Source of the DNA: Lineus longissimus
Lineage: Eukaryota > Nemertea > Pilidiophora > Heteronemertea > Lineidae
Assembly: GCF_910592395.1 (NCBI RefSeq)
Contig: NC_088308.1
Location: 10,061,001-10,125,000 of the forward strand
Length of the DNA stretch: 64,000 nucleotides
Direction of reading: 5' to 3'
This document shows, piece after piece, positions 17,698-58,594 of the stretch (position 1 is its first letter; each line of letters starts with the position of its first letter). The notes under the pieces are model-generated. The model saw only the letters and a list, made by a program, of their open reading frames with translations, was not told the DNA's origin and ran no database searches. A program made the translations under genes and the position numbers.

Positions 17698-17821
17698 GGG
17701 CCCACTCATTGTTAATTCAAGAAGCGGATAATAGACGGCGAAAGCATCTGGCCAACTGTGAACTGTCTACTGTGTAAGTGGAAAATGGAGACAGTGAAGA
17801 GTTCACTGTTTTGTGCGGAGC

Positions 17822-18570
17822 ATGCTCTGCTTGAGTTGGTGGACGTATTTCTTACCTATCGTGAGTTGGTGGACGTATTTCCTTCTTATCTTGAGTTGGT
17901 GGACGTATTTCTGACCTATCTTGAGTTGGTGGACGTATTTCTGACCTATCTTGAGTTGGTGGATGTATTTCTGACCTATCGTGAGTTGGTGGATGTATTT
18001 CTGACCTATCTTGAGTTAGTGGACGTATTTCTTACCTATCGTGAGTTGGTGGACGTATTTCTTACCTCTCGTGAGTTGGTGGACGTATTTCCTTCTTATC
18101 TTGAGTTGGTGGACGTATTTCTTACCTATCGTGAGTTGTCGGACGGATTTCTTACCTATCTTGAGTTAGTGGACGTATTTCTTACCTATCGTGAGTTGGT
18201 GGACGTATTTCTTACCTATCGTGAGTTGGTGGACGTATTTCTTACCTATCGTGAGTTGGTGGACGTATTTCTTCCCTGTCTTGAGTTGATCGACGTGTTT
18301 CTTACCTTTATATCTTGAGTTGGTAGGACTTTGGAGGGAGCCCTTTAACTATCAGCATCACGATCAGTGGCGAGGTAAATAGTCGCTTGTATTCTTTCGT
18401 CACGATATTTGGTCCACCTTGCCTGTTTTAATTTTATTTTTATCAAGGTGACTGTAGGCGGGGTCGATTGAAAGTTCCCTCCTTTCAGTATTATAAACAG
18501 ATAGAAGTATGCAATCATCAGAAAAGCTCTTTTTTTATCAACGACAACATTGACGCCAAAGTTCGTACAT
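17822..18570. repeat. 30-bp minisatellite (about 16 copies) with its 3' flank
   Basis: 17829-18310 is a 30-bp array ('gagttggtggacgtatttcttacctatcgt' type, broken here only by substitutions). 18325-18570 is a 3' flank ('ggagggagccctttaactat' ... 'gccaaagttcgtacatgta') shared with 24625-24870. The array is open as a ten-residue repeat only because the period is divisible by three. Confidence 0.9.
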
Positions 18571-19925: not shown

Positions 19926-22900
19926 ATGATGATCGATTCTTTGTCAGCTGAACTTCCAGTATTTCGAAGTCTTGATTCCTTTTTCATCACGGCAATTATG
20001 TGCCTCATTAGCTCAATAAGAAGTACGAACTTCGCTGTGATATTTGCGCCACTTTCAATTGACGCTAAGATCGGATTTATATACCGACAAAACGGTAACT
20101 TGTTAGACTCGAGGTCACGACTTCACTGCTCAATGAGCTGCGCACAACACGATTTAGTAGCCGGGTTTAGGTTTGAGAACCAAGGCAAAACTAACGCTTG
20201 CTTCTTTCTCGGTCGTTCTTGTCACTTTGAATTCACAAATAGGTCAATCGATATAATCATGAGAAAAAAGGTAAATACTTTTTAGCTAATACAGTGAGAG
20301 GTACCGGAAAGCTACAGGGTGGCCCAGAAATATCTTCCCTCACATAGTGGATACACAGTAGACTTCTAATGTGCAAGAGAAAATAATTCTGGGCCATCCT
20401 GCCGTGCCAACTAGCTACTTCATGCGAGGCAACAGAAGAGCAGAGTGCCAGAGCGTTGCCCTCATTTGCCACTTTCCTCAAGCAGCATTTTGGTATTGAC
20501 CAATCAGAAGAGAGCTATCATGCTTGTTCGGCGCAGACAGCACGACATTTGTCAAAACCTGTCACCTGACAAGAAGTCCAACATGATTTCAGCTTATGGA
20601 AAGTGGTGAACGATGAAGTGGTCGTGGTTTAAGGAATTGATATCGAATTGGAGGTATTGGTTGTCTCAACTAAACCGCGAGGGTGGAAATAGAATGTAGA
20701 CCAACAGCGAGGCGGAGCCGAGGTTTTGGTCAATATTTCAGCTCCAACCTAGCGGTTTGGGTGAAACAATCAATACCAACAGTGAGGTATCAATTTCTAA
20801 TCTAAAACATCTCAAATTAAATGTCGACTAATTTTGTTTTAAATGCTGTTGAAATGCTCCCACATTTTGCACCAACCCAAGCGGTTATGGTTGCCTGACC
20901 CAAACCGCTGAATTCAAAACGAGGCTTCATTCGACCATAGTGCATTTACACTGTAATGTGCGGTCCATTCCAAACCAACTTGTTTTAGAATTGAAAATAA
21001 ATATTCATCGTCTCGATACATTCTAGAGAAACGTTTAATATGGCAGCAAAACTGCTGAGTTAGAGCTTCGTTGCGGAAATTCTTTCTAAATATCATTCCA
21101 AAAGGAAGAATTTTTGGAACATATCTTTATAGTAATGTTGTTTTTAATTAATTTTGGTGAAACAAACTCTCCAACACAAAGCATTTGTTGGGGATACCCA
21201 ACATAGAATTCATGTTGGAGCTAGCCAATATGAAATTGACGTTCGTCCAACATACATTTTATTTCTGATATCCATTTTAAAAAATAGATTTGGTTACATG
21301 TACGTCTACATTGGACACCCAACAAAAATCATATGTGGTTCATGCAATGAATTGCATGGAGGGCGCAATTAACTGTGCACCCAGCCACGAGACCAAATTC
21401 ACTTTTTTAAAGCGGCAAATATGAACCCTAAAACGTCAGACCTACAGACGTAGGTTATCACGGTTTATGTTAGTTATTCTAAAACACCAGAATATAGAAT
21501 GAACCGCACTTTACATTGAAAATGCCCTATGCGCCAAAGAAGCCTCATTTTGAATTCAGCAGTTATGGTGAGGCAACCATAACAACTTCGGTTGGGGCGA
21601 AATACAGTAGCTGTCAAAAAGCATTTAAAACCACATTATTCGCTGTCTTAGTTGAGATGTCTTAGAATAGAAATTGATCTTCACTGTCGGTATTGATTGT
21701 CTCCCAAAACCGCTCGGGTGGAGCTAAAATTTTGGCGAAAACCTCGGCTACGCCTCGATTTCGGTCTACATTTTAGCTCCACCCTCGCGGTTTTGGTGAA
21801 ACAACCAATACCTCCAATTTTGTATCAATTCCTTAAGCCTAAATATAATTATTCTATAATGTAAATTTTGAAGACAAATTGATACCATGTACATTGTATT
21901 AATAAAACGTGTTGAAGCAGGTTTGAATGAATTGCTGGTTTATTTCACTAACCACATGATTTTGTTCAGTCTTAGTTGGACGTGTCCAATATACTCGATC
22001 ATATACTTTCTCTTCAATGGATACTGTTTCAAGGGAAAGCGACAGCTGTATCATCAATACAAAACATTGTCCCTTTCATCGCGTTTCTGGATGTCGTCGC
22101 CCGGGAAAGGTGCCTTCAACGGCTTCAAGGTGCTTTTTGATGAATTCTCAAATTTTCATGTGGTAGAGAAGAGACAAAACAGAAGTGTGGTTTATATTTT
22201 CCGGAGAAGACGGTATGATTATCAGAGGAAGATTCTGTTCACCACAGACATTTTTTTGCGCGGTAAGCTTAAATTTCTTCGGAGAAATTTAGCGATATTT
22301 AAATTCAGATCAAAAACGACCCGCATCGTAAATGCTAAAAATGGGCATGACGCTGGCTCTTATTCCTTAGAATTGCCACGAAAAGATGACGAGTTGCTTT
22401 GTTTAAATGAAATAACAGTCAAGGGCACTGCAAACGAAGCATTTGTGATGTACCACATACGGCGAAATGGGAGGAAGCTTTTGATATTCGGACGTTACAA
22501 CATCGTTATAATAAAACACAGTCGTGACAAAGTAAATTCATTTGGCCATTTGATGCAAAATGGAACAGAGTTGAAAGTCATCAATTCTGATTCGAATAAA
22601 ATGGGAAATTCTGATTTCTTTGTTCACATTACCAGTACCGGTGATGTTATTGTTAGAAATTTGAAATGTATACTTCTGTTTACAAGGAGGAGCAATTTCG
22701 AAGAGAGTTTGGTAGTTCGAGGGATGATATGGCTATCAGAGCTAAAATCACCTGTTTCGTGTGATGGTGTTGACTCTGAGGGGTGGAATGGCAAGCGCCT
22801 GTTATCAATTTGTCGCCTGGGGAAGAAAAAAACATCTGCGGTTTTATCTCTTCGAATACCAACATTACATAACATTTGGCACGATGAGGAAATATCGGTT

Positions 22901-23026
22901 AGTATTCTGAGGCAAGTTGATCATGACTTGAAGTTGGTGGGTTTTGGGCGTGATGGAAAATTTGTGACATATCACTGGCGGGGGGGAAAACCCATTACAA
23001 TCCATAGACCAAGCGGGCTCAGGTGA
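19926..23026 (+). CDS. PAN-like two-exon gene, array copy 1
   Basis: Predicted exon A is 19926-20270 (115 codons, donor AAG|GTAAAT). Exon B is 22034-23026 (acceptor TTTCAAG|GGA, phase 0, stop TGA), giving about 445 residues. Exon A carries a hydrophobic N-terminal region and a cysteine-spaced PAN/apple-like segment (LHCSMSC ... AGFRFEN ... NACFFLG). Exon B is basic and beta-rich, with recurrent short strands separated by Gly/Asp turns (TSTGDVIV, GFGRDGKFVTY). This is compatible with a propeller-like fold but not proven. Exon B is open back to 21887, but the paralogue at 7389 supports the internal acceptor. The signal peptide is weaker here than in the paralogue (MAIYFVLLFQIVES). No known family is recognised. 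An extracellular role is inferred. The intron is filled by a mobile element. Confidence 0.55.
20633..21832. mobile_element. 1.2 kb TTAA-flanked inverted-repeat element, copy 1
   Basis: Flanked by TTAA at 20629-20632 and 21833-21836. The ends are inverted repeats of roughly 58 bp (GGAATTGATA ... 'ttggaggtattggttgt' ... 'accgcgagggtgg'), with several mismatches. Internal segments repeat in both orientations, and no transposase is encoded. It lies in the intron between the two exons of the PAN-like gene. TTAA duplication is known for piggyBac- and Kolobok-type transposons, so a non-autonomous member of one of these is likely. Confidence 0.75.
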
Positions 23027-23526: not shown

Positions 23527-24880
23527 GTGCCGGTATATAGGCGTATCGAATTTCTTGGATGCCCGCTGAAAATAGTAGGAGTAAAATGTCACTAAAATGC
23601 AGGCCTGATCCCAATTATACAGTTGTGGTAGAATTTTTATAGGTATCAAGATAACATGCTTCGTCGTTACCAGGATCAAACAGTTATCACCCCAATCCTA
23701 ACATCAAGATAAAGGGCGATGCATACAATATTTTTAACAACAGCATGAACATTCCTAAAGAATCTTTGGCTAGTGGACGTGATTCTTACCATTATATCTC
23801 AACATGCTTGAGTTAGGGGACGTATTTCTTACCTTTATATCTTGGGTAGGTGGACGTATTTCTGACCTATCTTGAGTTAGTGGACGTATTTCTGACCTAT
23901 CTTGAGTTGATGGACGTATTTCCTTCTTATCTTGAGTTGGTGGACGTATTTCTGACCTATCTTGAGTTGGTGGACGTATTTCCTTCTTATCTTGAGTTGG
24001 TTGACGTATTTCTGACCTATCTTGAGTTGGTGGACGTATTTCTTACCTATCGTGAGTTGGTGGACGTATTTCTTACCTATCGTGAGTTGGTGGATGTATT
24101 TCTTACCTATCTTGAGTTGGTGGATGTATTTCTGACCTATCTTGAGTTGGTGGACGTATTTCCTTCTTATCTTGAGTTGGTGGACGTATTTCTGACCTAT
24201 CTTGAGTTGGTGGACGTATTTCTGACCTATCTTGAGTTGGTTGACGTATTTCCTACCTATCGTGAGTTGCTGGATGTATTTCTGACCTATCTTGAGTTAG
24301 TGGACGTATTTCTTACCTATCGTGAGTTGGTGGACGTATTTCTTACCTCTCGTGAGTTGGTGGACGTATTTCCTTCTTATCTTGAGTTGGTGGACGTATT
24401 TCTTACCTATCTTGAGTTAGTGGACGTATTTCTTACCTCTCGTGAGTTGGTGGACGTATTTCCTTCTTATCTTGAGTTGGTGGACGTATTTCTTACCTAT
24501 CTTGAGTTAGTAGACGTATTTCTGACCTATCTTGAGTTAGTGGACGTATTTCTTCCCTATCTTGAGTTGATCGACGTGTTTTTACCTTCATATCTTGAGT
24601 TGGTGGACGTATTTCTTAACTTAGGACTTTGGAGGGAGCCCTTTAACTATCAGCATCACGATCAGTGGCGAGGTAAATAGTCGCTTGTATTCTTTCGTCA
24701 CGATATTTGGTCCACCTTGCCTGTTTCAATTTTATTTTTATCAAGGTGACTGTAGGCGGGGTCGATTGAAAGTTCCCTCCTTTCAGTATTATAAACAGAT
24801 AGAAGTATGCAATCATCAGAAAAGCTCTTTTTTAATCAACGACAACATTGACGCCAAAGTTCGTACATGTACACAAGGTA
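23527..24880. repeat. 30-bp minisatellite element, long copy, inserted in unit 1
   Basis: A leader (23527-23812), about 26 monomers (23813-24610) and a 3' flank (24625-24870). Unit 2 lacks it: at 32934-33005 the flanks run on directly. The junctions in unit 1 carry a duplicated stretch ('accaactttgtaagacaatgg ...' on the right, a similar phrase at 23492-23520 on the left). Insertion by recombination between homologous flanks is therefore plausible. The 276-codon open frame is a by-product of the 30-bp period. Confidence 0.85.
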
Positions 24881-29389: not shown

Positions 29390-32300
29390 ATGATGATCGA
29401 TTCATTGTCAACTGAACTTCCAGTATTGCGTAGTCTTGATTCATTTTTCACCACGGCAATTATGTGCTTCATTAGCTCAATAAGAAGTACGAACTTCGCT
29501 GTGATATTTGCGCCACTTTCAAATGACGCTAAGATCGGATTTATATACCAACAAAACGGTATCTGGTTAGACTCGAGGTCACGACTACACTGCTCAATGA
29601 GCTGCGCAAAACACGATTTAGTAGCCGGGTTTAAGTTTGAGAACCAAGGCAAAACTAACGCTTGCTTATTTCTGGGTCGGTGTTGTCAGTTTGAATTAAA
29701 AAATGGGTTAATCGATATAATCATGAGAAAAAAGGTAAATACTTTTAGCTAATACAGTGAGAGGTACCGGAAAGCTACAGGGTGGCCCAGAAATATTTAC
29801 CCACACACAATGGATACACAGTAGATTTCTAATGTGCAAGAGAAAATAATTCTGGGCCATCCTGCCGTGCCAACTAGCTACTTCATGCAAGGCAACAGAA
29901 GAGCAGAGTGCCAGAGCGTTGCCCTCATTTGCCACTTTCCTCAAGCAGCATTTTGGTATTGAGCAATCAGAAGAGAGCTATCATGCTTGTTCGGCGCAGA
30001 CAGCACGACATTGGTCAAAACCTGTCACCTGACAAGAAGTCCAACATGATTTCAGCTTATGGAAAGTGGTGAACGATGAAGTGGTCGTGGTTTAAGGAAT
30101 TGATATCGAATTGGAGGTATTGGTTGTCTCAACTAAACCGCGAGGGTGGAAATAGAATGTAGACCAACAGCGAGGCGGAGCCGAGGTTTTGGTCAATACT
30201 TCAGCTCCAACCTAGCAGTTTGGGTGAAACAATCAATACCGACAGTGAGGTATCAATTTCTAATCTAAAACATCTCAAATTAAATGTCGACTAATTTTGT
30301 TTTAAATGCTGTTGAAATGCTCCCACATTTTGCACCAACCCAAGTGGTTATGGTTGCCTGACCCAAACCGCTGAATTCAAAACGAGGCTTCATTCGACCA
30401 TAGTGCATTTACACTGTAATGTGCGGTCCATTCCAAACCAACTTGTTTTAGAATTGAAAATAAATATTCATCGTCTCGATACATTCTAGAGAAACGTTTA
30501 ATATGGCAGCAAAACTGCTGAGTTAGAGCTTCGTTGCGGAAATTCTTTCTAAATATCATTCCAAAAGGAAGAATTTTTGGAACATATCTTTATAGTAATG
30601 TTGTTTTTAATTAATTTTGGTGAAACAAACTCTCCAACACAAAGCATTTGTTGGGGATACCTAACATAGAATTCATGTTGGAGCTAGCCAATATGAAATT
30701 GACGTTCGTCCAACATACATTTAATTTCTGATATCCATTTTAAAAAATAGATTTGGTTACATTTACGTCTACATTGGACACCCAACAAAAATCATATGTG
30801 GTTCATGCAATGAATTGCATGGAGGGCGCAATTAACTGTGCACCCAGCCACGAGACCAAATTCACTTTTTTAAAGCGGCAAATATGAACCCTAAAACGTC
30901 AGACCTACAGACGTAGGTTATCACGGTTTATGTTAGTTATTCTAAAACACCAGAATTTAGAATGAACCGCACTTTACATTGAAAATGCCCTTTGCGCCAA
31001 AGAAGCCTCATTTTGAATTCAGCAGTTATGGTGAGGCAACCATAACAACTTCGGTTGGGGCGAAATACAGTAGCTGTCAAAAAGCATTTAAAACCACATT
31101 ATTCGCTGTCTTAGTTGAGATGTTTTAGAATAGAAATTGATCTTCACTGTCGGTATTGATTGTCTCCCAAAACCGCTCGGGTGGAGCTAAAATTTTGGCG
31201 AAAACCTCGGCTACGCCTCGATTTCGGTCTACATTTTAGCTCCACCCTCGCGGTTTTGGTGAAACAACCAATACCTCCAATTTTGTATCAATTCCTTAAG
31301 CCCAAATATAATTATTCTATAATGTAAATTTTGAAGACAAATTGATACCATGTACATTGTATTAATAAAATGTGTTGAAGCAGGTTTGAATGAATTGCTG
31401 GTTTATTTCACTAACCACATGATTTTGTTCAGTCTTAGTTCGACGTGTGCAATATACTCGATCATATACTTTCTCTTCAATGGATACTGTTTCAAGGGAA
31501 GGCGACAGCTGTATCATCAATACAAAACATTGTCCCTTTCATCGCGTTTCTGGATGTCGTCGCCCGGGAAAGGTGCCTTCAACGGCTTCAAGGCGCTTTT
31601 TGATGAATTCTCAAATTTTCATGTGGTAGAGAAGAGACAAAACAAAAGTGTGGTTTATATTTTCCGGAGAAGACGGTATGATTATCAGAGGAAGATTCTG
31701 TTCACCACAGACATTTTTTTGCGCGGTAAGCTTAAATTTCTTCGGAGAAATTTAGCGATATTTAAATTCAGATCAAAAACGACCCGCATCGTAAATGCTA
31801 AAAATGGGCATGACGCTGGCTCATATTCCTTAGAATTGCCACGAAAAGATGACGAGTTGCTTTGTTTAAATGAAATAACAGTCAAGGGCACTGCAAAAGA
31901 AGCATTTGTGATGTACCACATACGGCGAAATGGGAGGAAGCTTTTGATATTCGGACGTTACAACATCGTTATAATAAAACACAGTCGTGACAAAGTAAAT
32001 TCATTTGGGCATTTGATGCAAAATGGAACAGAGTTGAAAGTCATCAATTCTGATTCGAATAAAATGGGAAATTCTGATTTCTTTGTTCACATTACCAGTA
32101 CCGGTGATGTTATTGTTAGAAATTTGAAATGTATACTTCTGTTTACAAGGAGGAGCAATTTCGAAGAGAGTTTGGTAGTTCAAGGGATGATATGCCTATC
32201 AGAGCTAAAATCACCTGTTTCGTGTGATGGTGTTGACTCTGAGTGGTGGAATGGCAAGCGCCTGTTATCAATTTGTCGCCTGGGGAAGAAAAAAACATCC

Positions 32301-32489
32301 GCGGTTTTATCTCTTCGAATACCAACATTACATAACATTTGGCACGATGAGGAAATATCGGTTAGTATTCTGAGGAAAGTTGATTATGACTTGAGGTTGA
32401 TGGGCTACGGGCGTGATGGAATATTTGTGACATATGACTGGCGAGGGCGAAAACCCATTACAATCCACAGACCAAGCGGGCTCAGGTGA
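29390..32489 (+). CDS. PAN-like two-exon gene, array copy 2
   Basis: Exon A is 29390-29734 and exon B is 31497-32489, with the same splice sites and phases as copy 1; the predicted product is again about 445 residues. Exon A keeps the LHCSMSCAKHDLVAGF segment. Exon B differs from copy 1 mostly by amino-acid-changing substitutions. The densest cluster lies near the C-terminus (32372-32460), where I count about nine replacement changes against about three silent ones. This fits relaxed constraint, diversifying selection, or conversion with another copy. Copy 3 shares most of the copy 2 states in this patch. The intron again contains the TTAA-flanked element. Function is unrecognised. Confidence 0.55.
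30096..31295. mobile_element. 1.2 kb TTAA-flanked inverted-repeat element, copy 2
   Basis: Same position and structure as the copy in unit 1 (TTAA at 30092-30095 and 31296-31299). It was duplicated with the unit rather than inserted independently. Confidence 0.75.
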
Positions 32490-38858: not shown

Positions 38859-41858
38859 ATGATGATCGATTCATTGTCAACTGAACTTCCAGTATTGCGT
38901 AGTCTTGATTCATTTTTCACCACGGCAATTATGTGCTTCATTAGCTCAATAAGAAGTACGAACTTCGCTGTGATATTTGCGCCACTTTCAAATGACGCTA
39001 AGATCGGATTTATATACCAACAAAACGGTATCTGGTTAGACTCGAGGTCACGACTTCACTGCTCAATGAGCTGCGCACAACACGATTTAGTAGCCGGGTT
39101 TAAGTTTGAGAACCAAGGCAAAACTAACGCTTGCTTCTTTCTCGGTCCTTGTTGTCAGTTTGACTTCACAAATAGGTCAATCGATATAATCATGAGAAAA
39201 AAGGTAAATACTTTTTAGCTAATACAGTGAGAGGTACCGGAAAGCCACATTGTGGCCCAGAAATATATTCCCACACACACAATGGATACACAGTAGATTT
39301 CTATTGTGCAAGAGAAAATAATTCTGGGCCATCCTGCAGTGCCAACTAGCTACTTCATGCGAGGCAACAGAAGAGCAGAGTGCCAGAGCGTTGCCCTCAT
39401 TTGCCACTTTCCTCAAGCAGCAATTTGGTATTGACCAATCAGAAGAGAGCTATCATTCTTGTTCGACACAGACATCACGACCATGATCACATAAGGGTTG
39501 GAGGTGATTGGTCAAAACCTGTCACCTGACAGGAATTCATATCGAATTGGAGGTATTGGTTGTCTCACCCAAACCGCGAGAGTGGAGCTAAAGTGCAGAC
39601 CAAAACCGAGGCGTAGCCAATATTTCAGCTACACCCGAGCTGTTTGGGTGAGGTATCAATTTCTCTTCTAAAACATCTGAAATTAAATGTCGAATAAATG
39701 TTGTTGTAAATACTTTTGAAATGCTTCTACATTTTGCACCAACCCAAACGGTTATGGTTGCCTGACCCAAACCGCTGAATTGAAAACCTGGTTTCAGTGG
39801 AGCATAGTGCATTTACACTGTAATGTGTGGTTCATTCCCAATCCAGTTGTTTTAGAATTGATAATAGATATTTGTTCCTTGATACATTGTAGAGAAACGT
39901 TTTATATGGCAGCAAAACTGCAAAGGAAGAACGTCATTCCGGCAATTCCTTCAAAATATCATTCTAAAAGAAAGAACTTTTGAAACATATGTTCTGGTCA
40001 TGTTGTTCTTAATCAATATCGAAGAAACAAACTCTCCAACACAATATTCGTTGGGGATACCCAACATAAAATTCATGTTGGAGCAAGCCAATATGAAATT
40101 TACATTCGTCCAACATACAAGTAATTTGTAATATCATCGTAAGAAATAGCTTTAGTTACACTTACGTAAATCTATATTGGACACCCAACCAAAATCATAT
40201 ATGATTCATGCAATGAATTTCATGGAGGATTCAATTAACTGTGGGCCAAGCCATGGCCTTAAAGTCAATTTACAGGTCCAAATTCACTTTTTTTTAAAGG
40301 GGCAAATATGAACCCCAAAACGTCAAACCCTGCAGACTGAGGTTAAATCACAAAACGAGGCTTCGTTGGCGCATAGTTCACCAGGATTTAGAATACCCGC
40401 ACTTTACAGTGTAAATGCAAATACAGAAGCTCTCAAAAAGCATTGAAAACCACATTATTCGCTGTCTACGTTGAGATGTTTTGGAATACAAATTGATACC
40501 TCACTGTCAGTATTGATTGTCTCCAAAAACCGCTCCGGTTGAGCTAAAATGTTGGCGAAAACCTCGGCTACGCCTCGATTTCGGTCTAAATTTTAGCTCC
40601 ACCCTCGCGGTTTGGGTGAAACAACCAATACCTCCAATTTGGTATCAATTCCTTAAGCCTAAATATAATTATTCTATAATGTAAAATTTGAAGACAAATT
40701 GATACCATGTACACTGTATTAATAAAATGTGTTGAAACAGGGTTGAATGAATTGCTGTTTTTTTTCACTGACCACATGATCTTGTTCAGTCTCAGTTGGA
40801 CGTTTCCAATATACTCGATCATATACTTTCTCTTCAATTGATACTGTTTCAAGGGAAAGCGACAGCTGTATCATCAATACGAAACGTTTTCCCTTTCATC
40901 GCTTTTCTGGATGTCGTCGCCCGGGAAAGGTACCTTTTACGGCCTCCAGGGTTTTTTTGATGAATTCTCAAATTTTCATGTAGTAGAGAAGAGACAGAGC
41001 AGAAGTGTGGTTTATATTTTCCGGAGAAGACGACGCTATGATTATCAGAGGAAGCTGTTGTTCACCACTGAACGTCTTTTGCGCGGTAAGGATAAAAATT
41101 TCTTCGGGGAAATTTAGCGCTATTCAAATTAAGATCAAAAACGACCCGCATCGTAAATGCTAAAAATGGGCATTATGCTGGCTCATATTCCTTAAAATTG
41201 CCACGAAAAGATGATGAGCTGCTTTGTTTAAATGAAATAACAGTCAAGGGCACTGCAAACGAAGCATTTGTGATGTACCACATACGGCGAAATGGGAGGA
41301 AGCTTTTGATATTCGGACGTTACAACATCGTTATAATAAAACACAGTCATGACAAAGTAAATACATGTACATTGGACCATTTGATGCAAAATGGAACAGA
41401 GTTGAAAGTCCTCAATGCTGATCGGAAAAAAATGAGAAATGCTGATGTCTTTGTTCGCATTACCAGTACCGGTGATGTTATTGTTAGGAATGTGAAATGT
41501 ATATTTCTGTTTACAAGGAGGAGCAATTACAAAGAGAGTTTGGTAGTTCAAGGGATGATATGCCTATCAGAGCTAAAATCACCTGTTTCGTGTGATGGTG
41601 TTGACTCTGAGGGGTGGAATGGCAAGTGACTGTTATCAATTTGTCGCCTGGGGAAGAAAAAAATATCAGCGGTATTATCTGTTCGAATACCACCATTACA
41701 TAACATTTGGCACGATGAGGAAATATCGGTTAGTATTCAGAGGAAAGTTGATCATGACTTGAGGTTGATGGGCTACGGGCGTGATGGAATATTTGTGACA
41801 TATGACTGGCGAGGGCGAAAACCCATTACAATCCATAGACCAAGCATTTAGAGCAATA
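38859..41858 (+). pseudogene. PAN-like two-exon gene, array copy 3 (inactivated)
   Basis: Exon A (38859-39203) is intact with its donor. Exon B starts at 40854 with the same acceptor. It is frameshifted near 41090, where extra A residues lead to a TAG at about 41115. It reopens in the matching frame from about 41198, then meets TGA at 41627-41629 where the other copies have a sense codon. The final codons are truncated by a deletion after 'agaccaagc' near 41845. These are independent hits in a copy whose neighbours are open, so the array includes both open and dead members. Confidence 0.65.
39532..40652. mobile_element. TTAA-type inverted-repeat element, copy 3 (degraded)
   Basis: Same intronic position as in units 1 and 2. 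The left TTAA is lost; the right end 'tatcaattcc' and TTAA (40653-40656) remain. Internal deletions relative to the other copies. Confidence 0.65.
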
Positions 41859-44689: not shown

Positions 44690-47600
44690 TTAGCTTTTCA
44701 CCTTTCGTTTCATCTGGGGACAACTCCTGGGTTCATATTTTACATACAACCGCTGTGTAACAAGTACCGGTTTTCCAGGTTGGGATTTTAGATGCAACCG
44801 TATCAATTTTACTCGATCAAATTTTTGTGTTTGAAGGCCATTTTTATCAAAACTGTGCTAAGTTGGACCTTCAAACTTTAGGGATACATTTGTCCTTGGG
44901 GAATCTAGTGATTGAGAGCCTCCTGGTAAGTTGACAAGTAGGTGAACGCTTGTATTTCACCATTTTTATGCTGCGATTTGTGACTTTTTGTAAACTGTCC
45001 TCCATGTTGGATGACGTCAGACTTATGTATTGTTTTGATGAGTGAGCGGTGAACTTTCAGATTGCAACTTTTCAAAGTCGTTTAATTCAGGTAAATATGT
45101 GTATGAAAGTAATTTCAAAGGTACCATTTAGTTTAGGAATATCTATAGAATCTTTTGGTGTTATTTTGTTAAGTTGTGACTTGGGGGAATTAGTTGTATT
45201 TTGTGGCTGCAGTTTGCACATGTTTCAAAACGTGTTTGTTTTGCACGGCCGTTAGCTAGGTAATTTTTACTTGTGGAGAAATCCCTCGGTCTTGTTACTA
45301 TGAATAGCCTGCCGACCACCGCGCCAACGGCGGGTTGAGTAACCAAAGTGGCTTGGTATATAATAAGGAATACGACCAGGAGACCCGGGCTCGCGATTTT
45401 CAAAGTTGGTCAAGCAAATCTCCTGCTACACCATCGACGAGCCGTGTAGTTGGTTCCACATTGTAGCATACACCACCAAGATGAGAAATTACCATATAAT
45501 TTTCCCTTTTCATCATTCTGTTTACGTTTAATATGAGGAAGGCTCAGGCCTTGATAGGGAGCTCTTCGTTAATAGGGCTGGTGAGCGAGAAGACTCGGGG
45601 GGGGGGGGGGGGGTATATAGTTAGGATGATGCCATCATGACAGTTGACCGAAGAAGCAGTTGGCTAGCACACAATGTCAATGATTGATGGCGAGTAGTTG
45701 GTGGGTGGGAGAGGGGGGATATAGTTAGGATGATGCCATCATGGCAGTTGACCCAATAGACGCTGTCGCAGTATAGAAAATAAGTGGGGAGAATGTGGGA
45801 AACTAAACACAACAGGAGAAGGATAGGTATTTTTGCCCGGAGATAAGCATAATGATCCCAAGACCCAAGTGTAATTAAGATTTATATTCTAATTCAAAAA
45901 CACCTTAGCCGACCCCCCCCCCCCGTCCTGAATAGTTTGAGGTCTCACTAGCCAGTGGTGATCAGGTGTTAATCTTGAAGTTATAAGGCATAGAGGTGAA
46001 ATTTTTCAAATTTGCGTTATATATACAGGGTGTCTCATGCATTGTGCTACATCAGTCTATGCATGACTGTAAGTCTAGACGACGTTGAAACTTGGTCAGA
46101 TGTATTCTACAATACAAGAGACATGCTATTCAGAAATGTATTGGTTTGTGTGAGAGTAACGTACTGCCAAGTCTACAGCCGCTGGAACAGGGGTATGCAT
46201 GAAATGACGTCGCGTCATTTTTGGAGGCAGTTAGGCCTGGCCTCCGCACCGGCTTGTGAGACCTGAGGGAAGCGCGTGCGTTTGAGTTAAGTGCGCATGC
46301 GCTTTCTACGGAAAATTAAAATGGCCAGTGTTGTGGACGAGTGGTTTCAGGTTTCACGGTAGGATTTTGACATGGAAACGGGGAAATAGACATTGAGACC
46401 AATGTACTTTCAAGATTATTGCATTATTAATGGAACCAGACCGTTGACATATTGTCACACCCCATGATATTGACGAAATCGTCGTCGAAACGGGCAGCCC
46501 CGGACCGATCATGTTGGTGCGCTTGAAACTACGGAAAAGTTAGCAGACGGAAAATCTTTTGCGGAATTTTGCCAGTTCAAAGCACGATTTCTTCGCGGAA
46601 AGAGAAAAATGATCTCTGGCAGCGATGCAGATTGTTGTTTAATGCATTTCGATTCGCCCCAGGGTATCGTCACACTTTGATTCGGCCCTGTTTTGACGAA
46701 ATCTTCAACCGAACAGCGGCTTCTCCACGTAAACATCGCAGCGTCCTGCTGAATTGTTTGGAAAAAGAAAATCTCTCCCTAGGTAAATTGCTGTGCATTA
46801 GCGTATACGATTCGCGTGCAAAAATGTCACCTGGGTGCAGAGGTTTTCTGGTTCCGGTCAAGCGGGTCAAGTTTTTTTCGTTGACGGTATACACGCACAC
46901 ATTCGACCCTTAACCATAAAGCTCGCTTAAGAGCTCCCTATAAAGACTTGCTAGTTTCTATTCTTGGTTCATAAGAGTCCCTCGATATGGGTTCTTCGTT
47001 ACCATGTACGAATTCTTGGCATATGAACCGATCTTACCTGTTTTAAACTGATTTTCCGGCGAAATATCGAAGAAACTCGCACGGGATTTGGCGCATCAGC
47101 AAATTTCTCCGCCAGCTGACGAAGTACCCAAAAATTGATTACGCAGTAACCATTCCTGGCACATGACCTAATTATTATTCACTTCCGATTTGGGTCCCTC
47201 CCTTTTATTATCATAATCGATGCGTTCAAAGTTGGTCAAGGGAAATTACTTCATAAATCATGCAAATTACCACGAAGGCGTCATGTTTGCAGATCAACCA
47301 ATCAGATCGGAGATTCCACAGGAGTCATGTGATCAAATAAATTGTTAAGGCACATTGTTGTCTAACGGCCGTGTTTGGTTAGCATTTCTCGAGGGTCTGT
47401 AGCCCGTGGGTGACCCCCGTGGATGCTGTATAAAACCCTGATTAGCCTGGTTAGCCTCAGATTGCCTGGACACATGGCCTAATTAACAGCTCTAAAAGAG
47501 ACAACCGTATTTTTAGCACGATTTATTTTACCAAAGTAAATCTGCTGTGCAAGCACCACCAGTGCGCACTACTAGCCTGATCTTAGTGCTTTGCTACTGT

Positions 47601-48297
47601 TTCTGGCTAACAGGTAGGTGGCAGAATTTGCCATTTTCAAGTTGACATTTTGACTTAGAGTAACTAAGTGCAACCCATATTTCATTTATCATCCTAGCAT
47701 TTTATATATAACAATGCCGCAGCAGTTCGTGCCATTGGAGGCACCTAGTGTGCATATATAATGCAGATGATATTTAGTAATTGAAACCATTTCTGTTGTA
47801 TGTGAATTTATGCTTGGTCACTGTTTAGATATTTTAATGTTGCAGTGTTTTACTGTACATTGGGTTGGTTAGTGCCACTGTCACTGGGTAAGCACTAATA
47901 ATCAATGGTTTGATGGTGTGTCAATGCTGGTTGAGTATGGAGTTAGGTCAAACTGGTTGTTTGCAAAATGAAATTGAGAATCTGGATTTAGTCCTGGTAC
48001 TAGTCATGGGGTAACAAACTTATAATATGTAGCTTTTCGGCCGGAAGTTTATGTATTGTGAAGTTGAAACACTTGTTGGCAGACAGCAAGACTAAGTAGT
48101 GGGAGTGACACTTTTAAAGGTGAACTGTCACTTGTCAGTTTGCCAACAAAATAGCTATAATTGACTTTCTTTTGTATATAAGTTCCACTAGAATGCGTCC
48201 TTACCAGTTTTATGCATAAAAACAATGCGCACAATGATTTATTAGGCCTTTTTTGTAAGTACCTCGCAAAACGCACTCGATCCAAGCTGCGAATCTA
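44690..48297. other. No confidently recognised gene
   Basis: Single-copy-looking DNA. A short possible first exon starts at ATG 46321 with a good context and a GTAGGA donor about 40 bases later, but nothing confirms it. Long G or C runs lie at 45596-45613 and 45916-45924. A phrase around 'tagttaggatgatgccatcatg' is repeated at 45619 and 45722. An open frame at 46569-46913 shows no known domain. Confidence 0.4.
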
Positions 48298-48327
48298 TTA
48301 ATAGCCCCGTGACGTCATTCCTAGAAC
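48298..48327. repeat. TTAA and left terminal inverted repeat, with CRE
   Basis: TTAA at 48298-48301. 48307-48327 is a 21-bp sequence whose exact reverse complement is at 53222-53242. It contains the palindrome TGACGTCA (48310-48317). The ATG of the P2X7-tail-like gene follows 28 bp later, so the repeat probably doubles as its promoter. Confidence 0.85.
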
Positions 48328-48354
48328 GTGTGCTGGGATCCACTTCGAACCAAG

Positions 48355-49531
48355 ATGGCGACCAATGAGGAATATTCGAGTGAAAGCGACTTCAGCGAAG
48401 ATTCTGACGACACTACGCTAGGTTTCATTGATTATGGGGATGAAGATAACGAAGGAGATGGTGAAGAACAAGCAGAACCTGTTCATTTTGGACCATATAT
48501 GTTTGAGCCGCTAGTTGAGGCCGATGAAGGCGCAGTCGAAGTGGACATGGCCGAAGATGCGGATGATCGGAGATGGCGACTGGACACTGATCGTTTGGGA
48601 GAATGGTATGCCTATATTTTTACACGTAGCCAAGGCCAACAAGGTTTCCAGGGTGTCGGTGTGTCAAGTTAATTCGCCATAACCATGTTATCAAGGACGT
48701 GCAGTAAGGTTTCATGCAATTTCATGATTTAGTATAAGGCTGCGCCTACACACAATCAATGGCAATGCACGACAATTGACATGCATACCCGGCCGGCCTT
48801 GCCAGGTCATGACAACACTGGACTTAGCATTTCCAACACAGTTGAGCATGAATGACCAGTCCTCATCATGATCGATGAGAGGACCAAGGATGGTGTACTG
48901 TAGTGTAGGGCCAGAGTCAGAGATGAAGATTGAGGGTCAAGTCCGCCCCTCCATCATCAGGGGACAGAATGGGATGAACAAATGAAGTAACTAGCATATT
49001 GATTGATTGATCTCTGTTTCATTTGTGTTTTATTTTTACATGTATATTACAAAGCATAATATATAATATCTGCTACCCTACTATATTTTCAGGTGCACAT
49101 GCGGAAATTGCCAGACAATGCCCACTGTGAGAGAATGTTGTTGCTGCATGGAAACAGAACAAGTTCCAAATAAAATTGCAGAAATACATTTGGTAGAGGA
49201 TGTAAATAATGTGACTCCCAACTGCATAGTCGATCATCCCGGATTTACTCCTGTATGCCTCAGCCCCTGGTCTCTACAAACTGCTTGGCTGTTCTACAAA
49301 CAGCAGTATTGAAGCAAAGCCTTCAATGGGCCCTCCAATGCCAAGTACAGGCACATCGCATATAGACAGTTGGTTCGTTGGTGTTGGGGATATGTAGGTA
49401 AAGACAATAGAATTATTCTGCCGTCATGTGCTGTAGCATGCATACGGGCACACTACCCACCACCAGGACAGGAGGAAGACTTCCAGTTTCGAGGGTATAT
49501 GGCTTTAGGTGTTAAGCATCCAGAACTGTGA
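48355..49531 (+). pseudogene. P2X7-ballast-domain-like gene with one premature stop
   Basis: Exon 1 is 48355-48605 (ATG in context caagATGgcg; donor ATG|GTATGC) and exon 2 is 49093-49531 (acceptor TTTTCAG|GTG), 230 codons in frame. The N-terminus (residues 1-80) is strongly acidic and disordered. The junction creates WCTCGNC, followed by MPTVRECCCC (cysteines at 85, 87, 90 and 99-102). Then come DHPGFTPVCLSPWSLQTAW, an AYRQLVRWCWGY helix and ILPSC (192-196). These match the cysteine-rich cytoplasmic 'ballast' region of P2X7 receptors, which binds zinc through such cysteines. There is no channel part: no transmembrane segments or extracellular loop. Codon 157 is TGA (49310-49312) at a position where relatives have Gly, one base from sense. 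The frame is clean on both sides, so the hit is recent or an error. The gene lies inside a TTAA transposon and is convergent with its THAP gene. Confidence 0.75.
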
Positions 49532-49541
49532 TGAGGAACAT

Positions 49542-52500
49542 TCAAATTGTGCTATTGCTGAAGCGAGACTTGAATCCTGCAACCGCATCACTGACGTTTG
49601 GCTTCTTGAACTGATCACATAGCGGTGGAGGCTCTTGTCGGCTTGGACCCTTCTGTTTGGTTGTTACTAACTCCATCATGTTCTGGAAGCATTCCTCTAC
49701 ATAATCTGGAAGTGTAAATAGAATACAATACGTAACATGGTATATAAAAGATAGCCAATAAATGTTTTATTTTTTCTTACATTGTTCTATGCTTCAGTTA
49801 TTTGACAAATGTAGGGAGACCATAATGGTTGTGAAATGGTAAGACCCGGATTGTGACATGGTATGCAAATGGTTTGTCTTACCGTATGTTGCTCCTACCA
49901 AGATTTTCTTGACAACATATCCTCCAGTTTTATACTTAGGAAAGTCGATCCTATATCGGCCTTCCCCGGCCATGGTTGCTGCTTGTGGGCGTCCCGCATT
50001 TTCATTATAGTGGAGAGCAGCTAGACAAATCCTGAAAAGGACCAGGTAAATTAGGAAACAAAAGGCAAAAAGTCAACTTGGCAAAGTGCATCTAGTCTTC
50101 TAGGATGCTATAGAACTGTTTTAGAATACCGACACACCTAGGCTTACCTGCTGTTCATTCCACTGTACGAGAACTTTATCATTTTGGGGGCAAAGTGATT
50201 GAGTACGCTGTGGTATGATTCAACTCCACTCGTCTGCCCTATTGCAGACATCTTGCTGATGTCATTGACGAGTAGAGTCTTGGTCAGCATAGCCACCAGA
50301 TCATCACTTGCTTGGGTTCCTGAAAAATAAAGGTAATTGAAAGGAGATAAATAACAAGTATTAAACTGACTGGAGGTGGAAGTGACCCATGGAAATGACA
50401 ACTATTGGTTTATGTATGGATCACCTACCTTCGTTTAACCATTTCCTCTGTTGTCCAAGGTCACCATGTAGACAGTTGTCATGTTTGTCCTGGATGTGCT
50501 CAACACAGGACAACCATTTCTTCTTGATCGCTGCACCATCTCCTTGCGGGGATGACATCACGCACCAATACAAATGATATTTTATGCTTTTAATCCAATC
50601 CCTTATTGGTGCTAGTGTCTTCTTCTTTGCCTTTTTCTCCATATTCTTGCAAAGGCCTGAAAGAAATACGACAAATTAAGAACAGGGTTCAACAGCATGA
50701 TTTTTCCTAGAACCCTTGCTACATTCTAGAAGAGAGAAATGAGGTGGAGTGATAGTATCCCCTGAGAGTAGTAGCTTATGAACATAACATTGCTTACCCT
50801 TCACAACATGCCAACAGTCGAAGAAGTGGGGGACTTTCAGTTTTTCACGGATCCACTTGGCAACCTGTCTGTGTCTGTCTGTGATCAAGGCCTTTACAGT
50901 CATCGTCCTCAAGAAGGGAGCACTCCTCTTGAGTCCCTCTAACTCCATATGGTAGCTGCTCTTCACCTCATTGCTCTGCAACATGAAATAAGGACAATCT
51001 ATTGGGAGCACTAATGAACAGGTTACATGTATATGGTTATGAACAAAGACAACCACTAAGTGTGTAAACTAACAAAGTCACCATAAAATTTGCTAGAGGT
51101 AATGCATACCTGAACCAACTCTATCGACAACAGTTTATTCACGTCCAGCTCCATCAACACATAGCTGCCAAATTTGGCGACCCATTGAGTCACAGCGCCC
51201 GTCTCCTCCGAGCACCAATGGTTTGTCCTTGAGAGTTTCAAGTAGAGCAGCTTGACAGCACTTCCATGTCGTTTCAACCGCAGTGTGCAGGTGTTTGTTT
51301 GGTGCCTGTAAAACGTCCTTGCTGTCTGACATTTTATGTTGAGGAAGCTGAAAAACGAAATAAGGACACCTGTATTACGACACATGTGTGAGAGTTTTGT
51401 TGCCAACGTTAAGATTTTATCTGCAAATATGTGGCATGTACTTACTTGAACAGCCTTAGGACCTTACTTGGTAGCGACCCCGAAAAAAGTATAGCACCAC
51501 TCAGTAGGATGTTCAAGATAGGCATAGTTCCGATCTTTGGTTGGCTGTCCCACTGCCTGGAGTTGCGACATCTGTCATTAGTACAGTCAGCCTTCAATGT
51601 AATCATGGTGCCGAACACTCTCTTGCTGGTCTTTGTTGGGTGGTTGCAGATCAAGCATGTATCAAACAACTCAAGCAGGGCCGACTCGAAAACAACATAC
51701 AGTTTTGGCTCATGAAGTGGCGGGACATTTTCATTGCTGAAAAAAAGGATAAAAACATTAACACATTGTTCTTTATGGATTATCTACATTACATGCATTA
51801 CATGTATGTATCCATGGTCAGCTGATATAGATTGCATGTAAATATATAAACACACCTGATTTCATCGAAAGCAACAGTATCAAAATCTTCATCATCAGAA
51901 CTTGAATCCCCAATGTCAAAATCCTCCTCTGGGAGGTAGTCCTCATCTGTCGGGTCATCATTTACAGCTCCATCGTCAACAAAACTGTCATTGAACTCCA
52001 TTTCATTTTTTTCAACAGCATCCTCACAGGCAGTATACTTTGGCGTTTTCATGACAGGCTCTTGGTCTGTGAGAAGAACACATTGGGTCCCAACAGATCT
52101 ATAGGGAGGCCTCTTTCTCCTGGGTGTCTGAACCGCTGAAAATGTAAATGAACATGGTCAATACCTGGTGATTAGCTGTCTGGAATGAGCAATTTTTATC
52201 ATGTAATGTATGGTACTGTCTAGGCCTAAATTATGGAAATTAAGTACATTTTATATTACGCACCTTTTGTAAGTACCTCAACCTTTCTGGCTGCATTAGT
52301 CCCATCATGAAGGTTTGGTGTGGAAGGTGGGTCACAAGGAGGCATATGACATATAGGCTCATCATCCTCGACCTCAGGCTCAGGCATGTCCTGGAGTGAA
52401 GCAGTATCATCTTCTTCTTCGACCTCCATAGCTGCTGCTTGGGCCTCAGAGACGAGACGACGATTCTCTCGCTTAGCCCAAGCACTTCTAGGCCTCCGTG

Positions 52501-53123
52501 GGGTGCTTTCACAGTTACCGGCACTTGTAGTGGTAGGTGTTGGTGGCATCAGATGAATTGTAGGCACAGCACCTTCTTTTCGCATCAATCTGAAAGTAAA
52601 ATCGTGAAATGAAACTGTCTTGTACCAACCAGGTCTCGGTGTAAGGCAGCCTAGGCCTGTCTCAGTGAATACATGATATGAATGTGATGGTTAGGCCAAT
52701 TCAAAAATCACCCATCTTTTAAGGACGGCGTGCTAAAATCATGCATGCTGTACGGAGTAGGGCATGGGCAATACACAGAACGACAAAGTCAACACCTCAG
52801 TCAGTACCTCAGGCCTAATTTTCGTCAGATTCAGCATAAATAACGGCAGCCTGTGCTACATGTACTAACCTCCTAGAAAACCCAGCATTATATTGCTGCA
52901 AATTCAGGATGCAGTCATCAGTAAAATGCTTCGAGCACAACACACTGGTTTTGGATGGCTGCCATTTATCTCGTTTTGCCTTGACGAACAACGTCCAAGA
53001 ACGCCGCAGTTCTGTCGTCTTCTTCTTCGCATCTGCCGATAAATTCGGTTTCTCCGGATCCGGGAATTCAAACAGATACCTGTCCTGTTGGCTACAATTA
53101 GCTGCGACGCAACGCCTAGGCAT
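49542..53123 (-). CDS. Ten-exon THAP-domain protein, DDE-transposase-like
   Basis: Exons (minus): 53123-52870, 52589-52264, 52135-51856, 51736-51446, 51347-51110, 50975-50798, 50656-50429, 50319-50148, 50031-49883, 49705-49542. All have GT-AG borders and compatible phases; the total is 2,280 nt, 759 residues. Residues 1-95 are a THAP zinc finger: C5, C10, C63, H66, W43, and AVPT across the exon 1-2 junction. Residues 95-290 are acidic and disordered. Next comes a conserved VFESALLELF ... CLIC segment (exon 4), then the catalytic-type region: ALITDRHRQVAKWIR (D496) in exon 6 and GVESYHSVLNHFAPK (E632) in exon 8. It ends with a C-terminal PPLCDQF tail. In exon 5 the family motif GGDGRCDSMG lies in a different frame from the spliced frame (two compensating shifts at about 51300 and 51180). 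The first acidic residue is therefore lost from the predicted product. The start is set by the THAP N-terminus. An upstream in-frame ATG would add 39 residues and cross the terminal repeat. Confidence 0.8.
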
Positions 53124-53221
53124 ATTTAAAAGTTCAAACGGAAGAAAAAAGTGTGTCGATGCTGAATGTTGTGTACAAATTACATGGCGTATTGTTCTCG
53201 ATCTCCCCATTCTTGCAGCAG

Positions 53222-53247
53222 GTTCTAGGAATGACGTCACGGATTAA
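53222..53247. repeat. Right terminal inverted repeat with CRE, and TTAA
   Basis: 53222-53242 is the exact reverse complement of 48307-48327, again containing TGACGTCA. TTAA follows at 53244-53247. It lies about 100 bp upstream of the THAP gene start, so it probably acts as that gene's promoter. Confidence 0.85.
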
Positions 53248-53304
53248 AGTTCCTTGGCGCGTAGTTTGAATTGCGTTTTTTGAGTGTCTGACATTCGGTT
53301 ACAG

Positions 53305-53532
53305 GAAAATTCGTCCCCGGATAATTCGTCCCCGGATAATTCGTCCCCGCAAATTCGTCCCCGGATAATTCGTCCCCGAGGATAATTCGTCCCCTAGGAA
53401 AATTCGTCCCCGGATAATTTGTCCCCAAGGATAATTCGTCCCCGGATAATTCGTCCCCAAGGAAAATTCGTCCCTGGATAATTCGTCCCCTAGGAAAATT
53501 TGTCCCCGAAAATAATTCGTCCCCAGAAAATT
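53305..53532. repeat. Short minisatellite built on AATTCGTCCCC
   Basis: About 14 units of 15-17 bp, alternating 'ggataattcgtcccc' and 'aggaaaattcgtcccc'. It starts about 60 bp outside the TTAA transposon. Open frames through it on the minus strand are repeat artefacts. Confidence 0.9.
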
Positions 53533-53539
53533 TTGCAAA

Positions 53540-54193
53540 GTTAAAAGTTTCTGACTTTACTTTCTAAGACCCTTAAGTCTTGTCGAATGGACTGTAGTAA
53601 TAACTACTACTTTCGATTTTTCTCATTCAGTGTAATATCTCTCTTTACTACCCTACTGGCTAGTTACCTGCCCCACTATTTTTATAGAAGGTAGAGGTAG
53701 GCAGGCAAAATATTTTATTGAAGAATTTAGAGCTTTTCTTTCATTCTGACCAGTAAAAATACTTATTTGAAGAAAAAAAATTTATTTCGCCTGCCTACCT
53801 CTACCTACTATGAAAAAAGTGAATTTTCCTAGAGCCCTGACATTCAAAGGGATATTACATAATTGTTGCGGGGTTTTTTGAAGACCTCTCTGCGCGATGT
53901 TGGATCTTACTATGTACTAAAACAAAATCATGAACTTAAATCAGAAAATTGTAGTCTGTCAGTTCACCTTTAAAATTGTCGAATGTTGACAATTCAATTA
54001 TTATTATTCACACCGCGTGTTTTCTTCTTCCTAATCCTAGTGTATTTATTAGTAAAGGACCTTCATTTTTCACCTGCAGGATTTGATAATCATGCCTTCT
54101 GGAGAAGATATCTGCTAGTTGTGGTCGTTGGTCGATTGGATATTCTGTCATTTTCGAGTAAGTATCGCAAAACCTTTCTCCTCTTTCCTTTTT
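53540..54193. other. No firm gene; one exon-like segment
   Basis: 54080-54157 is bounded by an acceptor (cacctgcag) and a donor (GTAAGT). It encodes a short hydrophobic stretch in one frame (YLLVVVVGRLDIL). A similar exon-like segment lies at 55381-55455 after a long pyrimidine tract, with a GTAAGT donor and a leucine-rich reading. The pair could be duplicated exons of an unknown gene. Two paired phrases about 'ctacctctacct' at 53685-53700 and 53790-53808 form a weak inverted repeat. Confidence 0.3.
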
Positions 54194-55279
54194 AGCTCAC
54201 CTCTTAGCAGAGGTGAGCTTATCCCATACCGTGGCGTCCGTCGTCCGTTAGCAGGGCACGTTTCGTAACTGTTAGAGCTATTGAGTTGAAACTTGGTACA
54301 CATGTACCCTTATGTAATGACACCTTGGAGACCAAGTTTCGGTCCGATTCGTTTCATGGTTTGGCCACCAGGGGGCCAAACGTTAAAAGTGAAAATATGC
54401 AATATCTCCCTTAATAGCAGTCGGGAAATTTTGAAAAAAATATGGTTGGTACTTCTAGCAAAGGTGCATCATATATCTCCGGGTTTTTGATTTGACCTCC
54501 TTTTCAAGGTCACAGAGGTCAAATGGTGTAAATTGGCCGTTATTTTGTAACGATGGCACGTTTCTAAACTGCAATGACTATTGATACCAAATTTGGTACA
54601 CATTTACCCCTTAGTCAGGTGATCTCAGGGACCGAAGTTTGGTCCAATATGATTCACCACTTGACCACCAGGGGGCAAAATCCAAAAACCTTAAAAATGT
54701 GATTATTCCTTAACTTCTTGCCCGATTGCCACCAATTTGATATCATGGGTACATCTAACCACCATACAGTATATGTCACACAGGTTTTTAATTTGACCTT
54801 CTTGTCAAGGTCACAGAGGTCAAATGGCGTAAATTCGCCGTCAGGCCGTAACTATGGCACGTTTCTTAACTGCAATGACTATTGATCACAAATTAAGTAC
54901 ACATGTACCCCTTGGTCAGGTGATCTCAGGTACCGAAGTTTGGTGCAATCTGATTTGCCGTTTGGCCTCCAGGGTGGGGGTCAAATCCTAAATTCTTCAA
55001 AATGCCATTATTCCTAGTAATGACTTGCCTGATTGGCACCAATTTTATATCATAGGTACATCTAATTCTAACAACCATTCAATGTGTCACCCGGGTCTTC
55101 TTTGATTTGACCTACTTTTCAAGGTCACAGAGGTCGAATGTACTGTAAATTGGCCATTTTGGGGAAATTATAATTGCTTGGACCTACATCAAACCTAACA
55201 CTACATGACACAATACCATGCTCTTTATCCATCTTTCCTCCACATGAGGTGAGCACAATGGCCCTGGCCATTTCATTTT
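54194..55279. mobile_element. 1.1 kb AGCTCACC dispersed repeat, copy 1
   Basis: Begins with the hairpin AGCTCACCTCTTAGCAGAGGTGAGC and ends with 'gaggtgagcacaatggccctggcc'. The start AGCTCACCTC and the GAGGTGAGC near the end are inverted. The interior is three diverged subunits of about 300 bp, each with a 'gaaacttggtacacatg'-like phrase, a 'ccaccagggggc' phrase and an 'aaggtcacagaggtc' phrase. There is no ORF. Nearly identical copies are at 60495-61618 and 63385-64000. This looks like a widespread non-autonomous element of marine invertebrate genomes. Confidence 0.8.
54365..55136. promoter_or_regulatory. CTCF-like and DR3 nuclear-receptor-like sites inside the repeat
   Basis: CCACCAGGGGGC occurs at 54365-54376 and 54665-54676, exactly 300 bp apart. 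AGGTCA-CAG-AGGTCA (a perfect direct repeat with 3-bp spacing) occurs at 54507-54521 and 54808-54822. A one-base variant lies at 55122-55136. The same sites recur in the other copies of this repeat. Binding is inferred from motif identity only. Confidence 0.45.
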
Positions 55280-56770: not shown

Positions 56771-58594
56771 AGGACGTTAGTCACTTCTCGTCTAGCAAAG
56801 ACGATTCACACGGAGCTTCGCGAAAAGCCAGAAGTTCACCTCTGGTCAGACTCGAAGATAGTTCTTCACTGGATTAAATCCAATTCCATCGATTTGAAGC
56901 CATTTGTTGGAGTACGAGTGGCCGAAATACAATCGACATGGGATCCAGAGCTTTGGAATCACGTCCCAACAGAACAAAACCCGGCTGATGACCTGTCTCG
57001 TGGACTGGAAGCTTCGGAAATGGTCGGACGTTAGATGAGTGGACCTTCCTTTCTTCTGAGTCCAAAGGAGGATTGGCCATCAAAGGTAGAGATCTCAGTA
57101 CCTCCAGAAGACAAGGAAAGAAAGAAGCCAAAGCCAGTCTGCACAGCAATGAAAGTTGTCTCGCCGATTGAATGCCAGAAGTTTTCGACATGGGGAAAGC
57201 TTTTGAGAGTAAACGCACTCTGTCTTCGGTTTGTCCACAACTTGAAGTGTAGGATACAGGATCGAGCTGAGTCAAGAGAGGGCACACTTGTACCAGAAGA
57301 GATTAGAGCAGCAGAGAACTATTGGATTGTTCAAGCTCAGAGAGACCTGGGAAATTGGGAAGCGAGATGTCTCGATCTTGCTCCCTTCGTGAAAGATGGA
57401 GTAGTCCGAGTAGGCGGTCGACTTAGAAAAGCGAGCCTACCTTATGACCAGATCCACCCTGTTTTACTTCCCGCCTCAGGGCACATATCTAGGTTGGTGA
57501 TGGAAGATGTCCACAGTCGGTTGATGTATCCCGGTTCGGAGCGTACTCTCTGCGAGAGTAGGAGCAAATACTGGATTCTCAAAGGTCGTAACCTCGCAAG
57601 AGAAACCGTGAGGAATTGTGTGATTTGCCGGAAGCTGAGACAGCCACCACATAGCACCCTAATGGGTGATCTACCTGCCAGTCGTCTCCGATTGTTCGCA
57701 CCGCCATTTACAACTACTGGAGTGGATCTCTTCGGCCCGTTCATGTTGAGATATGGTCGCAACATTAAAATGAAGGCGTGGGGCGCGATATTCACTTGCG
57801 CCACTGCTCGCGCTATTCATCTGGAAATAGTGGAAAGTTTGTCGACTCAATCGTTCCTCCAAGCAGTTCGCAGATTTGCTTCGCGTCGCGGATGGCCAAA
57901 GACATTAATATCGGATAACGGCACCAACTTCATTGGAGCTGAGAAGGAACTCAGGAAACTTACCAAAGAGATACGCAAGCAGTTGGAAGAATTTGCAGTT
58001 CTTCATGATATCAACTGGAGATTCATTACGCCTTTGAGTCCCCATCAAGGTGGCTTTTACGAGAGCTTAATCAAGCAGATCAAGAGCGCACTTAGAATTA
58101 CTGTGGGTGATCAGACGCTTACATGGAATGAAATGTCAACTGTTTTCAGTGAAGTGGAATGCCTGGTGAACTCAAGACCCATTGGATACGGAAGCGATGA
58201 TGCCAATGATTTCCGTCCACTCACTCCTAACCATCTGCTGATAGGACGAGCTTCAACAGAAATTCCACAAGGGCCGTTTGTAGAATCGAAAAATCTGCAC
58301 AAACGCTTCGAGTTTGTGCAAGCTCTTGCCACGAAGCGATTTGTCAAGGAGTACCTCTCTACTCTCATGCGCCGTGCCAAATGGCAGAATGCTAAACGTC
58401 AACTTGCGGTTGGAGACGTGGTTCTCTTGACAGATCAGAACATTCCATGGGGAAAGTGGGATGTTGCTCAGATAATCGAAGTATACCCCGGTGATGACAA
58501 TATTGTCCGAAACGTAAAGGTCAGGACCAAATCTGGTGAAAAGAAACGCAGTGTTCAGAAGTGCTGTGTGATCTTGGAAATGGACTCCGCATAA
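56771..58594 (+). pseudogene. BEL/Pao retrotransposon pol fragment (RNase H end, integrase, C-terminal domain)
   Basis: From 56771 the frame gives the end of a BEL-type RNase H (SRLAKTI, LWSDSKIVLHWI, NPADDLSRG). A TAG then stops it at 57032-57034, just before SGPSFL, in a linker where relatives have tryptophans. The same frame is then open for 519 codons (57035-58594). It holds an H2C2-type zinc region (HSRLMYPGSERTL ... CVICRKL) and an integrase core with the acidic triad at 57725 (VDLFGPF), 57914 (ISDNGTNF) and 58061 (YESLIKQIK). The C-terminal domain reads VGDVVLLTDQNIPWGKW. Protease, reverse transcriptase and gag are missing, so the copy is 5'-truncated as well as carrying a stop. Confidence 0.85.

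Follow-up and report, generated by a model that had tools for sequence, protein, structure and literature searches.

Kolobok DNA transposons are recognized by TTAA target sites, RR...YY termini and a C/DxxH motif in the transposase, and those of the Kol0 lineage carry a second gene, KolX, whose product has the ballast fold and resembles region 476-595 of the P2X7 receptor (Kojima and Bao 2022, PMC9587614). The same authors trace P2X7 to the joining of KolX to a P2X4-like gene and regard Nanor as a likely domesticated KolX (PMC9587614), and Kolobok of Xenopus has been described with AG ends and a THAP domain (PMC6004289). Here we analyse a 64,000-nucleotide stretch of the nemertean Lineus longissimus (contig NC_088308.1, positions 10,061,001 to 10,125,000; hereafter the window) and show that positions 48118-53969 very probably hold a Kolobok DNA transposon in a single damaged copy, its lineage being most likely Kol0. 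We assign a ballast-type gene and a THAP transposase gene to this transposon because its ends are shared at unrelated places, TTAA lies on both sides and the encoded domains agree.

To locate further copies, we searched the animal's own genome (391 Mb, 30 contigs), with match counts that are lower bounds. The seven matches to a query spanning 48290-48500 fall at six places including the window, on contigs C1, C2 (two pieces), C3, C9 (two places) and C17. A query spanning 53000-53300 gave four, comprising the window, one of the C9 copies already located and a third C9 place matched in two pieces. At least seven places are known in all, on C1, C2, C3, C9 (three) and C17. A reading made from the window's letters alone (the sequence-only reading) had drawn the element at 48302-53243, with an exact 21-bp inverted repeat forming the ends and the TTAA words at 48298 and 53244 forming the target duplication. 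Searching for related copies with these ends succeeded, but the ends that the copies share lie further out. When five other-copy stretches are aligned locally to the window, homology begins at 48133 or 48134, to the left of 48302, and that with the best-preserved copy (L009 on C9, hereafter the C9 copy) reaches 53973 on the right. The exact repeat with a TTAA near each arm is what recommends the narrower ends, and the words are indeed present at 48298-48301 and 53244-53247; copies elsewhere nevertheless remain homologous beyond them, to 48118 and 53969, and the word at 48298 is common to the copies and hence not a target site. Because homology between copies continues past the 21-bp repeat and its adjoining TTAA words, both are internal, and there is practically no chance that they mark the ends.

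At its outer edges the window reads TTAA followed by AGGTGAACTG on the left (48114-48127) and CAGTTCACCT followed by TTAA on the right (53960-53973). The left ends were placed through homology before TTAA was read, and TTAA AGGTGAA stands at all six left-end places, the letters beyond differing in copies L010 and L012; CAGTTCACCT TTAA stands at all three right-end places (window, L009 and L017). Outside these ends the copies are unrelated, with identities over 60 nt of 0.15-0.35 in 15 left pairs and 0.18-0.25 in 3 right pairs. We therefore delimit the element as 48118-53969 (5852 bp including a nested 540-bp insertion), where inter-copy homology ends in shared inverted termini on TTAA. Two ordinary host genes with similar promoters would account for a repeat that contains TGACGTCA and stands a short way upstream of each ATG, but not for TTAA ends shared on five contigs between unrelated flanks. 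We consider host genes extremely improbable.

Two spliced convergent genes with GT-AG introns lie between these ends, as the sequence-only reading had recognized, KolX on the + strand and the transposase on the - strand, with stop codons about 10 bp apart. The KolX-type gene has two exons with intron borders GTATGC...TTTCAG; the exon join encodes WCTCGNC and the frame continues to ILPSC. We take the resulting pattern, WCxCGNC ... CC ... C ... ILPSC, to match by eye the zinc cysteines of P2X7. The P2X7 tail signature noticed in the letters is borne out by Pfam, in which P2RX7_C (PF20478) matches the window open reading frame (ORF) 49313-49531 (+) with E = 4e-10 and the conceptual KolX protein of the C9 copy with E = 2.6e-16. 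The C9 protein also matches residues 477-592 of the PDB P2X7 chain 8tr5 with a whole-sequence E of 8.6e-4, and its RH and AYR align to identical P2X7 letters at 546-547 and 549-551 (numbering by hand count). A single-sequence AlphaFold model of the ballast exon had a mean predicted local distance difference test score (pLDDT) of 39.2 and was not used.

The transposase model reads through 759 codons without interruption, starting at 53123 and ending with the stop at 49542-49544. Its THAP domain, likewise anticipated from the letters, is matched in the window ORF 52815-53243 (-) with E = 1.6e-8 and at the N terminus of the spliced window protein (PF05485, residues 5-97) with E = 2.6e-10, and runs into AVPTIH, near the AVPTIF box described in PMC6004289. 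The motifs GDGRCDS, ITDRH, DCWH and GVES, read by eye, are in frame within the exons of the C9 copy. ITDRH, DCWH and GVES also occur in the window model, in which two indels (1 and 5 nt) keep the frame open yet shift the GDGRCDS stretch. The other eight of the ten window ORFs scanned against Pfam gave nothing convincing.

These features agree with Kolobok trait by trait. TTAA lies on both sides in the window and the C9 copy and at 6/6 left and 3/3 right ends, the termini read AG...CT and thus follow the RR...YY rule, DCWH (read by eye among the C9 motifs) supplies C/DxxH between the second D and E, the N-terminal THAP domain is as in Xenopus Kolobok, and a second gene with ballast similarity is present as in Kol0. 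The ends first drawn, which read TA...GA next to their TTAA words, would fail the RR...YY rule. Long terminal direct repeats of the KolobokP type (about 450 or 660 bp) were absent from a blastn comparison of 47500-54800 with the C9 copy, in which left and right parts shared short inverted arms only, and the KolobokP His-Me finger nuclease had no Pfam match in 10 ORFs and 2 spliced proteins, some small ORFs being unscanned. TTAA ends might also be expected of a piggyBac-superfamily element, or of two nested elements, one of which brought the ballast gene. We judge this very unlikely: AG...CT ends, THAP and DxxH are as in Kolobok, both genes lie within one pair of ends in the window as well as in the C9 copy, and piggyBac is not among the Pfam matches, none of the proteins scanned matching its transposase with an E of 1 or less.

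Several observations weigh against assignment of the locus to a mobile Kol0 element. The TTAA duplication was judged from occupied insertion places only, and both ends occur together only in the window and the C9 copy; no right end was found in the 7.7-8.8 kb downstream of the left ends of L008, L010, L011 and L012, the weak right-end matches in L010, L011 and L012 falling within a dispersed repeat. The spliced transposase is matched in Pfam by a Mutator-like transposase with E = 6.7e-5, under the curated cut-off, and the 8tr5 match has a single stretch with i-E 0.03 and none under the cut-off. Placement in Kol0, most likely as it is, is predicted from gene content. Finally, Rump et al. 2020 (PMC7016195) report that ballast genes are accompanied by two linked markers in animals ranging from sponges to molluscs, arthropods and echinoderms, a linkage that fits less comfortably with universally mobile ballast genes.

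The Kolobok copy in the window is closely related to the 5293-bp C9 copy, with local identities of 98.3% over 48133-53296 and 98.5% over 53837-53973. A global alignment gave 5142/5276 identical ungapped columns (97.5%) but misplaced the nested insertion at the 3' end; identity and the nested insertion are therefore taken from the local alignment, and positions of smaller indels from the global one. The KolX frame of the window is interrupted by a TGA at 49310-49312 that the sequence-only reading did not report. The C9 copy is open at this site, but its KolX acceptor reads CAT, and two deletions relative to the window remove 7 nt from the THAP exon and 1 nt near 50626. Both long copies therefore look non-autonomous. 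The window copy is very probably so, because a stop codon interrupts its KolX and the stretch holding the first catalytic D is out of frame; the nested 540-bp insertion adds to its damage. Other copies are shorter: L008, L010, L011 and L012 retain the left part only, to positions 837, 1313, 871 and 1145 of the C9 element, L017 retains 1135-1318 and parts of 4280-5293, and a full KolX reading frame is present in 0/5 of them. Whether ballast-type genes elsewhere adjoin THAP/DDE genes is answered here for copies of this one family only.

Table 1 Features of the Kolobok element in the window (positions of the window)
Feature	Position	Strand	Remark
Left TTAA target-site duplication	48114..48117		adjoins AGGTGAA in 6/6 left ends, window included; flanks unrelated
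Whole element	48118..53969		homology to C9 copy L009 extends to each end but no further
Left terminal inverted repeat AGGTGAACTG	48118..48127	+	7 bp more than C9 copy here, alignment position near 48126
Internal TTAA, earlier taken as target site	48298..48301		within stretch common to copies
Internal arm 1, holds TGACGTCA	48307..48330	+	about 25 bp upstream of KolX ATG
KolX-type exon 1	48355..48605	+	ATG to GTATGC donor
KolX-type exon 2, P2X7 ballast-type domain	49093..49531	+	in-frame TGA 49310-49312
THAP/DDE transposase gene, 10 exons	49542..53123	-	GT-AG borders placed by eye, phases consistent
Transposase exons 1-5	53123-52870, 52589-52264, 52135-51856, 51736-51446, 51347-51110	-	
Transposase exons 6-10	50975-50798, 50656-50429, 50319-50148, 50031-49883, 49705-49542	-	
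Transposase exon 5	51110..51347	-	1 nt + 5 nt missing relative to C9 copy; GDGRCDS stretch (first catalytic D) out of frame
Internal arm 2	53219..53242	-	about 96 bp upstream of transposase ATG
Nested 540-bp insertion with ATTCGTCCCC array	53297..53836		absent from C9 copy
Right terminal inverted repeat, CAGTTCACCT on +	53960..53969	-	identical in 3/3 right ends (window, L009, L017)
Right TTAA target-site duplication	53970..53973		read directly outside CAGTTCACCT

The internal inverted repeat extends over 24 nt at 96% identity (48307-48330 / 53219-53242), and the exact 21-nt core that the sequence-only reading described is present within it (48307-48327 / 53222-53242). An exact inverted match of this length within 6 kb is far beyond chance, as estimated from 4^-21. 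TTAA is unequally spaced from the two arms, being separated by 5 nt from the left arm and by 1 nt from the right, and arm 1 is kept with at most 2 mismatches in 4/5 other left-end copies, L011 being deleted there. We take TGACGTCA in arm 1 to resemble a cyclic AMP response element (CRE). The 24-bp repeat stands just upstream of both ATGs; its most likely roles, both predicted, are those of a promoter element common to the two genes or of a subterminal site to which the transposase binds. As this example demonstrates, a conspicuous inverted repeat next to TTAA may lie within an element and need not mark its ends.

In the mechanism we propose, the transposase would bind near the element ends via its THAP domain and would excise the element and insert it into TTAA through its DDE core, and KolX, as a zinc-binding protein, would act as an accessory factor of transposition. 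A further suggestion is that KolX works together with the transposase instead of being a passenger, that the CRE-like 24-bp copies couple the expression of the two genes, and that, given the alignment of RH and AYR to the guanine-nucleotide region of P2X7, nucleotide sensing by the ballast fold began in transposition control; we regard this as unlikely.

The nested insertion is flanked on both sides by CTGACATTC (53288-53296 and 53837-53845), ends in GGTTACAGGAAAATTC and, inverted, GGCTCTAGGAAAATTC, and looks like a nonautonomous DNA transposon carrying a minisatellite. Beyond the element, the repeat at 54186-54800 recurs in pieces of about 98% identity in 4/5 copy stretches (L008, L010, L011 and L012), kilobases from the element, and seems to be a dispersed repeat of the genome. 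Elsewhere in the window, a 519-amino-acid open frame at 57035-58594 resembles, to the eye, the integrase portion of a BEL/Pao-type retrotransposon, near-identical 384-amino-acid open frames occupy 21872-23026 and 31335-32489, apparently within a repeated block, 41096-41629 holds a similar frame, and frames with VDVFLTYLEL-type repeats lie at 17716-18318 and 23850-24680.

A transposon origin of the P2X7 tail, as the sequence-only reading had suggested, agrees with Kojima and Bao 2022 (PMC9587614); since that paper already states it, the idea is not new. Rump et al. 2020 (PMC7016195) did not find H547 in the invertebrates of their set, unlike the conceptual C9 KolX, in which a histidine aligns to P2X7 H547. 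The same paper describes a ballast protein of a mite in which one domain is printed as 'TAHP', which may stand for THAP and would then fit a Kolobok origin. Compared with the P2X7 ballast (P2RX7_C, PF20478) and Nanor, KolX of Lineus has by eye a similar cysteine pattern, with RH and AYR aligned to P2X7; it differs from P2X7 in lacking the P2X channel part and in being encoded inside a transposon. Xenopus Kolobok and T2-MITE (PMC6004289, whose main text mentions neither KolX nor P2X) share with the element TTAA, AG ends (AGGRR in T2-MITE) and THAP, whereas the terminal letters past AGG differ. Closest is Kol0 of the Kolobok-1_XT type as described in PMC9587614, with which the element agrees in the features compared, namely TTAA, RR/YY ends, a DDE transposase with C/DxxH and KolX. 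With a ballast gene and a THAP/DDE transposase between Kolobok ends, the Lineus element provides an independent example in line with the 2022 proposal.
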